Of a DNA stretch of 64,000 bases, positions 58,268-64,000 are shown one piece after another. This stretch comes from Actinomycetota bacterium. Its GTDB lineage: Bacteria; Actinomycetota; Thermoleophilia; Solirubrobacterales; Solirubrobacteraceae. The stretch lies in the NCBI GenBank assembly GCA_009699245.1, contig WLOQ01000004.1:124001-188000 (forward strand). The letters are read 5' to 3'. Below the pieces are notes generated by a model. The model did not search any database. It saw only the letters and a program-made list of their open reading frames with translations, and was not told the origin of the DNA. Numbering within the stretch: position 1 is the stretch's first letter; each line of letters starts with the position of its first letter. A program made the position numbers and the translations under genes.

Positions 58268-59038
58268 TCAGCGCAGCAGCGCCGTGGCCTTCATCGTAAC
58301 CTCGTTGGCGGCCACCATGACGCTCCGCCCGAGGTCCGCAAACTCGGCGAGGTCGTCACGGATCGCCTCACGGTCCGGATGGCTCAGATACGCCTCCATG
58401 TCCGACCAGGAGGCGAAGCCGACCTGGGCGATCCCGGCCACGTCGGTGAGCGACCCGATCGTCAGGCGCTCGCGCGTCGCCGCGTCCGCGTCGCCCGTCT
58501 CGTCGGAGGCGAGCGGCGTGTTGTGCGAGTACTGGATGACGTACTCGGCGAGCGCCGGGGAGCGCATCACGTGCTGGAGGTGGAGCTCCCAGCGGCGGGC
58601 GAACTCCTCGCGACTCACGCCGTCCTTCGCGCGCAGGAAGGCGAAAAACTGCGCCGCGGTGCCGATCCGCCATCGGATCATCCGCTCGTGGTTGAGCGTC
58701 GTGAACTCCTCGACGAGCTCGTGGAAGGCGCCGTACTCGTCCGCGAGCAGGATGGGGAATGTCGGATGGGTCAGAAGCGACTCGAGCGACGCGCCCCCCG
58801 GGAACATCACGACGCCGACGCCGTCGTAGTCGCCGGACCAGAGATCCCCGGTATACGGATCCGCAGCGACCGGCGGGTGCTCGGCGACATCGTTGTGGAA
58901 GTAGCCGATGCAGGGGTTCATGAACGGCAGGCTCAGCGCGAGTTCACCGTGGCGACGCCAGCGCGCTGCGAAGCGGCCGCGCTCGAGGCGCGGGTTGCGC
59001 CTCGCGAGGTAGATCGACTTGATCGGCTGGTCGGTCAT
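58268..59038 (-). CDS. EthD-like dimeric alpha/beta-barrel protein, two repeats
   Basis: A 256-residue cytoplasmic protein. Two similar halves are visible: LARRNPRLERGRFAARWRRH at the N-terminus and FLRAKDGVSREEFARRWELH near residue 137, each followed by a His-containing segment. EthD-like proteins appear in ether, alkyl-aromatic and phenol oxidation clusters; their exact role is often unclear. Its ATG overlaps the flavin oxidase stop by four bases, so the two are translated together and probably act in one pathway. Confidence 0.8.
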   Translation of the reverse strand: MTDQPIKSIYLARRNPRLERGRFAARWRRHGELALSLPFMNPCIGYFHNDVAEHPPVAADPYTGDLWSGDYDGVGVVMFPGGASLESLLTHPTFPILLADEYGAFHELVEEFTTLNHERMIRWRIGTAAQFFAFLRAKDGVSREEFARRWELHLQHVMRSPALAEYVIQYSHNTPLASDETGDADAATRERLTIGSLTDVAGIAQVGFASWSDMEAYLSHPDREAIRDDLAEFADLGRSVMVAANEVTMKATALLR

Positions 59039-60636
59039 GAGGTCCTCCCGTTGCGGCCTGAGCGCAGATGCTCGGGCCAGATGCCCTGCTTGCCCGGGGC
59101 GAGGATGCCCTTCGGGTCGACTGCGTCCTTGATCCTCTCGACGAACCGCAGATACGCGTGATCGTTGAAGTCGTAGTGCGCCGCCACCTCGTCCATGTGG
59201 GTGAGGTGTGAGCGGAACTCGCCGTAGCCGAGCTCGGCTGCGCGCGAGACCATGCGCTTCGTCGTGCTGAAGGCGCGCTGCGAGGCGTCCTCATCGGCGG
59301 TGTTGAACATGATCAGCCCGACGTGCAGCATCGTGCGCGCGTTGATCGAGACGCTCCCGGTCATGTAGTCGAGCCCGGCCTCACTCTCGAGCGTCTCCCG
59401 GAGCGCGTTGTGGCAGGCGAAAAGGTCGCGACCGCGCAGCGGGACGACCGGCGAGAAGCCGATGTGACCGCCATCGTTCTCGCTGTACCAGCCGACCATG
59501 TGGTTCATCTCGAGGTTCGGAACGCCGCCGCTGACGAGCTCGCCCGGATTCTCGAGCGAGGGGATCTCGTCGAACGAGTGCGGCTCGCCCCACACCTCGG
59601 CGCCGGGGATCGCGCCGAACGCGTCCTTGATCCGCGCGAACTGGCGCTCGACGATGTCGCGGCGCCCGAAGAGGGCGGCACGCAGCATCCAGCGACCGGA
59701 GCCGATCTCCTTCGCGATCCCGTCGATCAGATGGTCGGGGATCGCACCGGGCCCGTCATAGAACTGCGAGCGGCGCCCGAACACGCAGGCGAACATCAGC
59801 GTGTTGTAGATCACGGGACCGGCCTCGATCGTGCGCTCGAGACGCAGCTCGCGCAGCGTGTCGACGAGCGGGATGAGGTCCTCGTAGTTCCAGACACGCA
59901 CCCAGACGGGGTGGTAGACCTCGGGCGCCGGCAGGAGCCAGATGCCCATCTTCGTGACGATGCCGAAGTTCGACTGCGTGAAGAACCGGTCGAGGCTCGG
60001 GCCGAAGGAGCTCTTGTAGGTGTGCCATGCCGGGTTGTCCGTCATGGCACCCATGCCGGTGCGCAGGACGTCGCCGTCCGCCGTCACGACCTCCATACCG
60101 CAAGGGGCCGAGTGATCGTTGCCGTTGACGCCGTAGGTGAACCCGTTCTCGAGCGAGTTGCCGATGACGCTGCCCCAGCCGAGATCGGTGTTCGACATCA
60201 TCAGCCGCAGGCCGCGGCGCGTGATCTCGTCGTAGAGGTCGCGCCAGGTGACGCCCGGCTCGACCTCGGCGTACGCGAGCTCCTCGTCGATGTGGAGGAT
60301 CTTGTTCATCCGCCGCAGGCTCACCGTGACGGTGCCCTGGACAAGCGGCGCGGCTCCGCCGTAGCCGTTGTTCTTCCCGGTCGAGTGCGTCCAGATCGGC
60401 ACGCCGTGCTCGGCCGCGACCCGCACGACGGCCTGCACCTCCTCGGTGCTCTGCGGCATCACGACGATCGACGGCGTGTTCGTGTCCCACTGCGGCGGCT
60501 GGAACGGATCGCGGAACTCGGCGAAGTGCTCGCCCTCGGTGAGGACGTGCTCGGCGCCGACGGCGGCGCGGAAGCCCTCGAGGGCCTTGGCGAAGGTCGC
60601 CTCGGAGACGCCCTGGGGAAGTACGACATCACTCAT
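59035..60636 (-). CDS. FAD-dependent oxidase of the vanillyl-alcohol oxidase/4-cresol methylhydroxylase family
   Basis: A 533-residue flavoprotein. The PP-loop for FAD is THSTGKNNGYGGAAP (83-97), and the substrate-side GNSLENGFTYGVNGNDHSA followed by GMEVVTADGDVLRTGMGAM matches vanillyl-alcohol and eugenol oxidase. These oxidise the alkyl side chain of 4-substituted phenols. The covalent FAD ligand could not be assigned with certainty. It lies 24 bases after the PEP-utilising-domain gene and overlaps the EthD-like gene. Confidence 0.88.
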   Translation of the reverse strand: MSDVVLPQGVSEATFAKALEGFRAAVGAEHVLTEGEHFAEFRDPFQPPQWDTNTPSIVVMPQSTEEVQAVVRVAAEHGVPIWTHSTGKNNGYGGAAPLVQGTVTVSLRRMNKILHIDEELAYAEVEPGVTWRDLYDEITRRGLRLMMSNTDLGWGSVIGNSLENGFTYGVNGNDHSAPCGMEVVTADGDVLRTGMGAMTDNPAWHTYKSSFGPSLDRFFTQSNFGIVTKMGIWLLPAPEVYHPVWVRVWNYEDLIPLVDTLRELRLERTIEAGPVIYNTLMFACVFGRRSQFYDGPGAIPDHLIDGIAKEIGSGRWMLRAALFGRRDIVERQFARIKDAFGAIPGAEVWGEPHSFDEIPSLENPGELVSGGVPNLEMNHMVGWYSENDGGHIGFSPVVPLRGRDLFACHNALRETLESEAGLDYMTGSVSINARTMLHVGLIMFNTADEDASQRAFSTTKRMVSRAAELGYGEFRSHLTHMDEVAAHYDFNDHAYLRFVERIKDAVDPKGILAPGKQGIWPEHLRSGRNGRTS

Positions 60637-60660: not shown

Positions 60661-62292
60661 TCAGGAGAGAATCTCGACGACGCCTGTGCTGCCGTCGACG
60701 CGCACGCGCTGCCCCGTCTTCAGGGTGCTCGTGCCGGTGCGGGTGTTGATGACGCAGGGAACGCCGAGCTCGCGCGCGACGATCGCGCCGTGGCTCACGG
60801 GGCCGCCGATGTCGATGACGAGGCCGGAGGCCGGCACCATGAGCGAGACCCAGCTCGGGTCGGTGGTGACGCAGACGAGGATCTCGCCCTGCTCGACCGC
60901 CGCGCCCGTCGGGCTCGTGATCACGCGCACGACACCTTCGACGACGCCCGGGCTGACGCCCATCCCCTCGACCGTCAGCGGCGCCTCGCTCGTGTCCTGC
61001 GAGATGCGCTCGACCTCCGGATCCCCTTCCCAGAAGACCGGCAGGCGGTAGTCGAGATACTCGTCGTGCCGGCGCCGGCGGTCGGCCACGATGGCCTTCG
61101 CGTCCGCCGGGAGCTCCGGCCCGAGCAGCTCCGCAGCGGTGAGCTGGAAGACGTCGGAGGCATCGTCGAGCATGCCGGCCTCGACGTACAGGTCACCCAT
61201 GCGGCGGGCTGCGGCGCGGAAGACGTCCCATGCCATGGCGCTCGCGACCTTCTGGATCGTGCGCACCTGCATGTACTCGCTCGCCTGGTGCATCGCCCTC
61301 AGGGCGCCCTTGCGCTTGTTCTTGGGCAGCCCGCTCAAGATCGCCTGCTCACCGGCGATGCGCTCATCGGCACGGCGGCCGAGCACGGAGCCCGGCTCCT
61401 CGTCGTCGGACATGCCGGCGTACGTGGCGATCAGGCCGTCGAGCGCGTCGGGGTTCTCGCGCCAGGACGGCTCGGCGATCTCCATGCCGAGCGGGACCGT
61501 CCAGCCGTGGTGGTCGAGGAACTCCTCCTTGGTCATCCGCCCTCGGGACACGCGCCAGAGGTCGGTCGCCATGTCGATCTCCTCGGTGCCGTAGCCGCCG
61601 CAGACGACGTTCTCGGTGCCCGGGTTCCCGGACTCGGCGGCGAGCTCGCACAGCCGCATGTAGCTCAGCTGCGCGATGACGGCCGATGCCCAGACGTACG
61701 GCACGGCGCGGTAGTACTGGACTTGCGCGTCGATGCAGGCCTGCTTGGTCTCCGCGAGCGTCGCGGTCTCCAGGCGGCGCACCTCGCTGCGCCACCATGG
61801 CAGCAGCTCGGCGCGCAGTTCGCGCATCTCGGTCGGGATGCGCCTCAGCCCGCGGCGCATCTTCACCGCGACGATGGGCTTCCGGATCCACGGGAGCTTG
61901 TCGGCCTCACCGACGCCGTCCCCACCGAACATCTGGGCCTCGTAGGCCGCCCCGGAGGTGCCGGGGAAGATGTCGAGGTAGTGGCGCACGACGCGCACGT
62001 TCGCGGCGCAGTACCCGTAGAAGTAGCCGAGGTGGTAGTCCTCGCGCCGCTGGGGCATCTTCACGGCCTTCTTCGGGATGATCCCGAGGTAGGCGAAGGC
62101 GCCGAGGAAGCCCATCTCGACCGACTGCGCGAGCATCGTGATCGTGAACGGCGTGAGGACGCCCGGCATCTGCTCGCCGGTGTTCGCCGTCGTCCAGCGG
62201 TTGCCGGGCGGGCTCGAGATCGTGAGCGGGTCGACCTCGTACGGCACCTCCGGGCTGTGCAGCGGCACCATCTTCGGAATGAACAGGCTCAT
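60661..62292 (-). CDS. Substrate domain plus phosphohistidine (PEP-utilising mobile) domain, no ATP-grasp
   Basis: A 543-residue protein. The front part contains NRWTTANTGEQMPGVLTPFT, the pattern of the substrate domain of rifampin phosphotransferase-like enzymes. The C-terminal 90-100 residues are a swivelling phosphohistidine domain with GGPVSHGAIVARELGVPCVI, catalytic His about 501. The ATP-binding domain that such enzymes need is missing. A PPDK-like gene with that domain lies upstream in the same direction, so the two may form a split phosphotransferase, as in phenylphosphate synthase. Its ATG overlaps the 204-residue gene by four bases. Confidence 0.85.
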   Translation of the reverse strand: MSLFIPKMVPLHSPEVPYEVDPLTISSPPGNRWTTANTGEQMPGVLTPFTITMLAQSVEMGFLGAFAYLGIIPKKAVKMPQRREDYHLGYFYGYCAANVRVVRHYLDIFPGTSGAAYEAQMFGGDGVGEADKLPWIRKPIVAVKMRRGLRRIPTEMRELRAELLPWWRSEVRRLETATLAETKQACIDAQVQYYRAVPYVWASAVIAQLSYMRLCELAAESGNPGTENVVCGGYGTEEIDMATDLWRVSRGRMTKEEFLDHHGWTVPLGMEIAEPSWRENPDALDGLIATYAGMSDDEEPGSVLGRRADERIAGEQAILSGLPKNKRKGALRAMHQASEYMQVRTIQKVASAMAWDVFRAAARRMGDLYVEAGMLDDASDVFQLTAAELLGPELPADAKAIVADRRRRHDEYLDYRLPVFWEGDPEVERISQDTSEAPLTVEGMGVSPGVVEGVVRVITSPTGAAVEQGEILVCVTTDPSWVSLMVPASGLVIDIGGPVSHGAIVARELGVPCVINTRTGTSTLKTGQRVRVDGSTGVVEILS

Positions 62293-62903
62293 GCGTGCGT
62301 CTCCTCGGCGAGTCGGTCGATGGCCTGGACCTGCATGAGCTCCTCATGGAGCTCGAACCAGACCGTGTGGTAGCTGTCGAGCAGCGGTGAGGCGATGTAG
62401 CGATCGTCCCCACCGTCGATCTGCGCGAGCGCGGTGTCAAAGCGGTGGCGGTGGACGTCCCAGCGCGGGACGAGCTCGATCATCTCGTCGAGGACCGGGC
62501 CGAAGCTGGCGTCCAGGCGCGCGAGGCGCTCACGCACCTCGTCGTCGTAGTCCGGGTCGGAGTGGTCGTTGGGGATGAGCTCGTCGCCCTCCCCCTCGCG
62601 CAGCTGCCACGCCGTGACGACGTGCTTGAGCTTGTCGTTTGTGCGCTGAAAGCGCTCGTAGAGCGCACCGAGCGCCGCAAGGTCGGTCTGTGCGCGCTCG
62701 GCGGTCAGGAGGCCGGTGACCGCGGCGCGACCGGCGTCGGTGATGCGGCCGCTCTCGTCGAGCAGCCCCTCCCCCGCGAGCTCGGCGAGCAGGTCGGTCG
62801 CCTGCGCCTCGGGCCAGTCGGTCGCCTGCGCCAGCGCGGCGGCCGACGTATGGCGTCCGAAGGCGATCAGCTGCAGCGCCTGCAGGCGTGAGGGCGCACT
62901 CAT
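62289..62903 (-). CDS. Winged-helix-like protein of unknown function
   Basis: A 204-residue protein. Residues 5-65 look like a winged helix: LQALQLIAFGRHTSAAALAQ, LLAELAGEGLLDESGRITDAGR. The remaining part is helical and charged, with DDEVRERLARLDASFGPVLD. A DNA-binding regulator is possible, but the tight coupling to the phosphohistidine protein (four-base overlap) and the GAAGGAG site suggest a subunit or adaptor instead. I do not recognise the family. Confidence 0.7.
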   Translation of the reverse strand: MSAPSRLQALQLIAFGRHTSAAALAQATDWPEAQATDLLAELAGEGLLDESGRITDAGRAAVTGLLTAERAQTDLAALGALYERFQRTNDKLKHVVTAWQLREGEGDELIPNDHSDPDYDDEVRERLARLDASFGPVLDEMIELVPRWDVHRHRFDTALAQIDGGDDRYIASPLLDSYHTVWFELHEELMQVQAIDRLAEETHA

Positions 62904-63002
62904 GTGCGTGGCTCCTTCGTCAGATGGTCATCCATGGGTCTCTCCTCCCAGCGGACGGCGGCGGAACGACCCAGGGGCGCCCGTCGCGTCAGGTCTGTGA
63001 CC

Positions 63003-64000
63003 CTATCCGGCAGCGTCCTGCGCGGCAACGATCGCGGCCTGCGCCAGGCGCAGCAGCGTTCCCTCGCGCTGACCGGCGGGCGGCACGACGGTGGGAATGC
63101 CGGCCGCGATCACTGCGCGGGCCCCGGCCTCGGTGACGACGACCGAGCCGGTGACCGCCGTGGCGCCGCGCATGGCGGCGGCGAGGTCCTCCATGCCCGA
63201 GGCCGACTCCGCGTCGATCCCCGCGCCGTCGAGGTCGAGCGCGCCTTCGGCCCGCTCGACGACGTTGACCGGCGCGATCGCGGCCGCCCACGACAGCAGC
63301 TCACTGAGCCCCGGGACCTCACCGGGCTCGACGCGCACGGTCGGCAGGATTCCCGCGTAGATGGTCCCCGCCGAGCCGTCGACGGTGACGTCGCGGCCCA
63401 CCCACGCGTCGTTCGGCTGATCGCCGATACCCACGACGCTGGGCCGTCCGAGCGCCCGCGAGACGACCGCCGCATGCGACGTCGCGCCGCCGTGATGGGT
63501 GACAATCGCGGCCGCCGCGATCATGCCCGACACGTCCTCGGGGCTCGTCGTCGGGCGCACGAGCACCGTCGCGCCCGGGTCGTCACAGGCAGCCTGGGAG
63601 TCAAGGACGACACGGCCGGCCGCCACGCCAGGGCATGCCGCCACACCCTGCGCGAGGATCTGCGCACCGGCGGCCGCACCATCGGCGAGTCGCGGCGCGA
63701 GCATCGTGGCGATCTGGTCGACATCCACGCGCGCGACCGCGCGGGCGTGATCGATGAGTCCCTCGGCGACGAGGTCCCCGGCGATGCGCAGCGCCGCAAT
63801 CGGGGACCGCTTCGCCGAACGGGTCTGGAGCAGGAAAAGCCGACCCTGCTCGATCGTGTACTCGATGTCCTGCACGTCGCCGTTCTCGCGCTCGAGGAGC
63901 ACGCCGAGGCGCAGCAGCTCCGCGTGAGCGTCCGGGTGGCTCGTGGCCAGCGCCGACAGCGGCAGACAGTCATGGACGCCGCTGACGACATCCTCGCCCT
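63003..64000 (-). CDS. PPDK-like ATP-binding and phosphohistidine protein, lacking the PEP/pyruvate barrel (5' part outside window)
   Basis: The visible 332 codons continue beyond the right edge. They begin in the end of a PPDK-type ATP-grasp domain (QDIEYTIEQGRLFLLQTRSA), pass the central helical region (AVARVDVDQIATMLAPRL) and the phosphohistidine domain with THHGGATSHAAVVSRALG. In pyruvate phosphate dikinase a barrel of about 350 residues for PEP and pyruvate would follow. Here the protein ends after about 110 residues of different sequence. So it can take phosphate from ATP but lacks the usual PEP site. It precedes the 204-residue gene by 99 bases. Confidence 0.85.
   Translation of the reverse strand, partial: GEDVVSGVHDCLPLSALATSHPDAHAELLRLGVLLERENGDVQDIEYTIEQGRLFLLQTRSAKRSPIAALRIAGDLVAEGLIDHARAVARVDVDQIATMLAPRLADGAAAGAQILAQGVAACPGVAAGRVVLDSQAACDDPGATVLVRPTTSPEDVSGMIAAAAIVTHHGGATSHAAVVSRALGRPSVVGIGDQPNDAWVGRDVTVDGSAGTIYAGILPTVRVEPGEVPGLSELLSWAAAIAPVNVVERAEGALDLDGAGIDAESASGMEDLAAAMRGATAVTGSVVVTEAGARAVIAAGIPTVVPPAGQREGTLLRLAQAAIVAAQDAAG

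Follow-up and report, generated by a model that had tools for sequence, protein, structure and literature searches.

Layout of the operon

The DNA analysed here, called the window, is a stretch of 64,000 nucleotides from an Actinomycetota bacterium of the Solirubrobacteraceae (assembly GCA_009699245.1, contig WLOQ01000004.1, positions 124,001 to 188,000). Its end carries an operon in which two proteins resembling the halves of a dikinase enclose a smaller one. We name A the ATP-grasp/His-swivel protein (putative donor), M the 204-amino-acid (aa) middle protein and B the substrate/His-swivel protein (putative acceptor). These genes and their neighbours all lie on the minus strand, in the order BKACE, metallo-hydrolase, A, M, B, VAO-type oxidase and EthD protein, followed by KorA/KorB. 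Overlaps of 4 base pairs (bp) join BKACE to the metallo-hydrolase, the metallo-hydrolase to A, M to B (ATGA) and the oxidase to the EthD gene; 99 bp separate A from M, and 24 bp B from the oxidase. The window holds just the C-terminal part of A; the flank was fetched, and the complete gene showed the whole ATP-grasp. Other loci, genomes and contigs are designated by L, G and C numbers.

63003..64000, continuing to the equivalent of 64805 (contig C14:187003-188805), minus strand: A, putative donor, 600 aa, PPDK-type ATP-grasp and His swivel without PEP barrel, VadK/PRK05878 family
63336..63668, minus strand: swivel domain of A, approximately residues 380-490, predicted phospho-acceptor His444 (GGATSHAAV)
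62289..62903, minus strand: M, 204 aa, winged-helix and helical, invariant DSYHTVWFELHEE motif, PF24409 at the N-terminus, Rv1126c family by synteny
60661..62292, minus strand: B, putative acceptor and substrate-specific kinase, 543 aa, Rph-type substrate domain and His swivel without ATP-grasp (Pfam and fold match)
60667..60993, minus strand: swivel domain of B, residues 434-542, predicted phospho-acceptor His501 (GGPVSHGAIV)

An earlier note on this stretch had described the first gene as an ATP-grasp end with a phosphohistidine domain but no phosphoenolpyruvate (PEP) barrel, and the second as an Rph-like substrate domain with a phosphohistidine domain but no ATP-grasp, both on one strand and separated by a 204-residue protein to which the second is translationally coupled. 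The complete sequences bear out this description.

A, a VadK-type protein

Pfam recognises PPDK_N and PEP-utilizers domains in A, from which the PEP barrel (PF02896) is absent; no PEP-barrel gene was found within the operon. The ATP-grasp catalytic residues K37, R107, E315, Q327 and R329 align with those of pyruvate phosphate dikinase (PPDK) and are invariant where aligned. The swivel His444 is intact, and its equivalent is kept in 56/56 complete truncated homologues. A scores 623 bits against NF004531 (cut-off 456), for which the mycobacterial homologue in L097 reaches 913. A midpoint-rooted tree was built from 31 full-length sequences and 56 that lack the barrel or are cut at an end. In it, A and the mycobacterial VadK-type proteins fall in one clade of 43 members that includes no full-length PPDK (support 0.87, with 0.999 for the branch separating the rest). 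By these sequence comparisons, A is a VadK-type protein of the PRK05878 family and not one of the CreI/HpeI type. We also considered A as the PPDK of the cell and rejected this candidate. A complete 896-aa PPDK with its PEP barrel is a different gene on contig C4, and the full-length barrel elsewhere in the genome, which the earlier note had named as a potential objection, belongs to this separate enzyme.

VadK is the Rv1127c protein of Mycobacterium tuberculosis. Its autophosphorylation on His422 has been reported, and neither the H422A nor the H422D mutant restores growth on propionate, both being dead in vivo (PMC13400623). VadK and its partner Rv1126c resemble A and M in their families (PRK05878 and the small-protein family), in their operon arrangement and in the combination of an ATP-grasp and a His swivel with no barrel. 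They differ in that they were described without a small-molecule acceptor (EMBO Rep 2026, PMC13400623), whereas A and M of the window share an operon with a putative acceptor kinase of the Rph type.

The A protein of G121, which is from the same family as the window, bears a C-terminal helix-turn-helix of the LuxR type (L088 11147-13621, minus strand), and its gene lies among three B genes (L088 15180-16874, L088 18169-19764 and L089 2533-5055). This particular donor may additionally sense or regulate.

B, a putative acceptor of the rifampin phosphotransferase type

The C-terminus of B is a PEP-utilizers domain (Pfam, residues 467-537), and the protein lacks an ATP-grasp. Its AlphaFold2 model (pLDDT 90.4) matches rifampin phosphotransferase (Rph) minus the ATP-grasp along the whole chain (Foldseek 5fbu, E 1e-21, TM 0.72). 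The two proteins share the fold of the substrate domain and swivel, but Rph (PDB 5FBU/5FBT/5HV1) is a single chain that includes its own ATP-grasp and has rifampin as its substrate. Against NF041857, the model of the rifampin phosphotransferase family, B obtains 132 bits, below the cut-off of 999. The swivel His, His501 here, is present in 59/59 B sequences reaching this column, a count which omits one further B, the window's own copy as truncated at the edge of locus L068. When the N-terminal part of B alone was used for a genome scan, no conserved stretch emerged.

M, the middle component

The predicted structure of M (pLDDT 92) combines a winged helix with helical parts, and the DSYHTVWFELHEE stretch is invariant among its homologues. 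Compared with the PDB by sequence and by fold, M gave matches at the level of the winged helix only, and no fold match at E < 0.001. Truncated PPDK genes repeatedly adjoin M homologues, and in L240 a single polypeptide carries both A and M. We used L097 and L226, two Mycobacterium loci of matching gene order, as comparators for Rv1126c, Rv1127c and Rv2047c. L097, from a Mycobacterium-like genome, has a regulator of the RamB/PrpR type next to its A (552 aa) and M (201 aa); since Rv1127c, Rv1126c and PrpR have been described in this arrangement, we infer that M belongs to the Rv1126c family. Rv1126c was co-expressed to keep VadK soluble, and a wash with 2 M NaCl served to separate the two (PMC13400623), so that the pair probably forms a complex. 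Judging from this conservation, M is a component of the module and not a bystander.

Three further contexts of M were observed. In genome G235, an M-family protein overlaps the gene for a stand-alone 140-aa His-swivel domain (L099 8010-9111, minus strand), as if M served swivels generally. In genome G118, M is convergent with a 559-aa Rph-type protein made of an ATP-grasp and a swivel, too short for a large substrate domain (L098 8148-10477). In Rhodococcus sp. LW-XY12, the M domain forms the C-terminus of an AMP-binding, acyl-CoA-synthetase-like protein encoded directly before A (L110 16836-19007, plus strand).

Relationship with two-part phenol kinases

HpeHI of Rhodococcus GD02, CreHI of Corynebacterium glutamicum and PpsAB of Thauera follow the same two-part dikinase logic, with an ATP protein separate from a substrate and swivel protein; theirs phosphorylate phenols. 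The earlier note compared the window's pair with such enzymes. For comparison, CreHI, HpeH and PpsA were represented by a pair from Rhodococcus oxybenzonivorans (L198), recognised as CreHI-like by gene order and length: cytochrome P450, ATP-grasp protein (376 aa), substrate/swivel protein (610 aa), short-chain dehydrogenase/reductase (SDR), ferredoxin, reductase, HD protein and aldehyde dehydrogenase. Its ATP-grasp is of the PEP-synthase/Rph type and has no His domain (292 bits for the Rph type vs 25 bits for the A type), whereas A matches PPDK at 1e-107 and does not match 9goj, which we take to be the HpeI entry. The L198 substrate protein matches NF006150 (PRK08296) over its full length with 1159 bits, whereas PRK08296 models match B at residues 434-543, the swivel, only.

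The phenol kinases thus combine a bare PEP-synthase/Rph-type ATP-grasp, devoid of swivel, with a PRK08296-type substrate protein (tested on the L198 protein), and have no M. Orthology with them, to which the identical split of ATP and substrate functions and the adjacent VAO-type oxidase would lend themselves, was rejected: the ATP-grasp belongs to a different lineage, B lies outside PRK08296, the home of the CreH-like protein, and the module has an extra swivel and the additional subunit M. We hold such an orthology to be extremely improbable; by descent the pair is not of the PpsAB/CreHI type, and any likeness would be one of function.

Distribution and linkage of the module

The A-M-B module recurs in Actinomycetota, in one betaproteobacterium and in one myxococcote. 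Once duplicates had been removed, 23 non-redundant loci had A and B together on one fetched stretch, and five others had A together with an epimerase-B fusion (at least 28 in all); the routine unlinking of the two genes, a possibility mentioned in the earlier note, was not seen. Linked cases include Mycobacterium avium plasmid pP7a, M. branderi, Diaphorobacter, Rhodococcus LW-XY12, Gordonia oryzae, Nocardia veterana and a metagenome-assembled genome (MAG) of Myxococcota. Full-length split B genes occur in named Actinobacteria and in the Myxococcota MAG; plasmids of M. avium, M. branderi, Rhodococcus and Diaphorobacter carry them too. At several loci a single A-M accompanies two to four B genes, with three in M. 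avium pP7a, G121 and N. veterana; G445 has 12. A literature search of partial coverage found no paper on the module.

Co-occurrence extends to the genome scale, with statistics that all ignore phylogeny. Among 15 searched genomes with split B, A is clearly truncated in 13 and cut by a contig edge in two; in a sixteenth, that of Mycolicibacter longobardus, B is fused to an Rph-type ATP-grasp and A is missing. In a sample of 246 genomes of the phylum, split B occurs in five, all of which have M, itself present in 21 (p = 2.8e-6). For 118 Mycobacterium genomes, we counted as acceptor either split B or a protein of NF004520, the Rv2047c family, and G453 was scored as having A-M as the genes were seen directly in L244. 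Both A-M and acceptor are present in 57 genomes and neither in 58, with A-M only in one and acceptor only in two (Fisher p = 4e-30). The lone genome with A-M only (G470, a reduced mycobacterial genome of 3.3 Mb) has an A broken by stops and frame changes (L251 7965-10476, minus strand) next to an intact M, and a full-length acceptor is absent too.

Consecutive genes for an ATP-grasp (403 aa), a 212-aa protein and a swivel (179 aa) were also observed on a plasmid of Variovorax sp. WDL1 (L197 5244-7591), where they may form a further split or decayed dikinase.

A proposed phosphohistidine relay

From these sequence, fold and linkage data, we think it probable that A-M-B is a split ATP-dependent small-molecule dikinase, with A-M as phosphohistidine donor and B as substrate-specific kinase. 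A would bind ATP in its PPDK-type ATP-grasp and phosphorylate its own His444, as shown for VadK. The phosphate would then be handed, either straight from A or with M assisting, to His501 of B, whose swivel would move into the Rph-type pocket and phosphorylate a hydroxyl of a small molecule, as the Rph/HpeH fold suggests. The net reaction would be ATP + R-OH (+ H2O) -> R-O-P + AMP + Pi. Conserved linkage and co-occurrence support the suggestion of the earlier note that the pair works as a split dikinase, and its view of a His domain in each partner as a hint of phosphate relay agrees with the invariance of both His residues and with the dead VadK mutants.

With donor and acceptor on different polypeptides, one A-M could serve several B, as enzyme I and HPr serve several sugar permeases in the phosphotransferase system (PTS). 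The two systems would have in common a phosphohistidine donor shared by several substrate-specific acceptors, and the His domain of enzyme I has the same PF00391 fold. The PTS is driven by PEP and devoted to sugar transport across the membrane, whereas A-M-B would be cytosolic and driven by ATP. Besides the fused Rph and the CreHI/HpeHI split, the module would represent a third build of small-molecule dikinase, one in which exchangeable acceptors draw on a shared donor, and widespread genes annotated as 'PEP-utilizing enzyme' would gain testable substrates.

A simpler scheme would follow HpeHI, with the ATP-grasp of A phosphorylating the swivel His of B directly and the swivel of A left as a relic or regulatory site. 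HpeHI, CreHI and PpsAB do use an ATP-grasp subunit devoid of swivel (PMC12167813), and the architecture of B is sufficient for an acceptor. With such direct service, drift of the His of A would be expected, yet none of the truncated homologues has lost it, and the H422A and H422D mutations of VadK abolish growth on propionate despite an intact ATP site (PMC13400623). We therefore favour a path from ATP to the His of A, by way of M or not, then to the His of B and the substrate hydroxyl, and consider the direct scheme rather unlikely.

Alternatively, A-M could be a histidine kinase with a regulatory role, such as has been suggested for VadK, controlling the cluster or its enzymes, with B acting independently on another phosphate donor. 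The interaction of VadK with methylcitrate enzymes (PMC13400623), the winged helix in M and the fusion of A to a LuxR-type domain in G121 are compatible with this role. B, however, lacks any site for ATP or PEP, and a genome-wide co-dependency of A-M and acceptor, with A missing only where B is fused to its own ATP-grasp, would be unexpected for a regulator. We judge a purely regulatory role to be quite unlikely.

Several points nevertheless weigh against the relay through A and B. We know of no documented case of His-to-His transfer between two swivel domains, and B might instead bring its swivel straight to the ATP-grasp of A, by analogy with the proposal for HpeHI. In two mycobacterial genomes, an acceptor-like gene is present while A is absent. 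VadK was presented as a regulatory kinase that binds enzymes of the methylcitrate cycle (PMC13400623). On the substrate side, the oxidase adjacent to B has a Phe where its best-matching solved homologue has a Tyr (GYGEYR motif), near the C-terminal Tyr-Arg pair, and a classical free phenolate is consequently not assured as its substrate.

Putative mycobacterial acceptors and a possible link with mycoketide

Mycobacterium genomes with A-M but without split B mostly carry a protein of NF004520, the Rv2047c family of the pks12 operon. Like B, these proteins have a swivel but no ATP-grasp and co-occur with A-M as putative acceptors. They begin with an epimerase-type SDR domain and continue into a helical, Rph-like part and the swivel, and their profile alignment with B covers the C-terminal half only. 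The family member adjoins a giant polyketide synthase (PKS) in L226 and lies at most about 16 kb from A-M in five genomes (L240-L244). Rv2047c-family proteins were likewise noted at L226 8834-11392 (minus strand), L227 6218-8785 (plus strand) and L240-L244, beside a giant PKS or no more than about 16 kb from A-M.

According to a transposon-sequencing table, rv1127c, rv2047c and pks12 are required under an identical set of conditions (with mycobactin, but not with haem or haemoglobin alone), a pattern common to other genes such as mmpL5 (PMC7058343). In 2012, a review stated that no enzyme had yet been identified for the phosphorylation of the mycoketide alcohol (PMC3318773). From this gap, the matching requirement pattern and the co-occurrence and linkage of NF004520 with A-M, VadK probably serves Rv2047c, a candidate for the mycoketide phosphorylation step. 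A more general scheme can be put forward only tentatively: A-M would be a soluble ATP-driven phosphohistidine relay, similar to enzyme I/HPr, feeding interchangeable acceptors (B and epimerase-B fusions), and VadK would be such a donor, whose true acceptor Rv2047c would phosphorylate the Pks12 mycoketide alcohol toward mannosyl-phosphomycoketide. VadK, a virulence-associated protein of M. tuberculosis, would then gain a biochemical role, with Rv2047c named as candidate for a missing step of mycoketide biosynthesis.

Substrate and neighbouring genes

Rph phosphorylates a hydroxyl of rifampin. HpeHI phosphorylates phenolic hydroxyls (PMC12167813). By analogy with both enzymes, the acceptor for B is likely the hydroxyl of a small molecule. 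The genes downstream of B are the following:

59035..60636, minus strand: flavoprotein of the VAO/eugenol-oxidase/4-cresol-dehydrogenase family (sequence match), 533 aa, 24 bp after B, substrate-side neighbour
58268..59038, minus strand: EthD-domain protein (domain match), 256 aa, overlapping the oxidase gene by 4 bp

The oxidase is a full-length homologue of its family (E 1e-129 to 1e-94) and hints at a 4-alkylphenol. In the window, B probably acts on a phenol or a similar alcohol that is handled together with this enzyme, and the phosphate would trap or activate the compound for catabolism. Of the phenolic or other hydroxyl compound suggested in the earlier note, the hydroxyl stands, B being an Rph/HpeH-type component; the phenolic nature is plausible from the oxidase alone.

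Plasmid pA of R. pyridinivorans P23 (L114 690-10927) groups A with a coniferyl-alcohol dehydrogenase, an aldehyde dehydrogenase, a P450, an AMP ligase, M, a SurE nucleotidase/phosphatase and a divergent B. By analogy, this cluster looks like a cre-type pathway, that of phosphorylated 4-cresol, run by an A-M-B kinase. Other neighbours of the module are acyl-CoA dehydrogenases, LLM oxidoreductases, DUF7065 proteins and APH/ecdysteroid-kinase-like proteins, and these varied neighbourhoods suggest diverse substrates. DUF7065-type proteins of about 300 aa stand directly beside B in unrelated genomes (L111 12905-13819 and L108 15569-16459, with the Pfam match tested on the L111 protein only) and probably belong to the substrate pathway.

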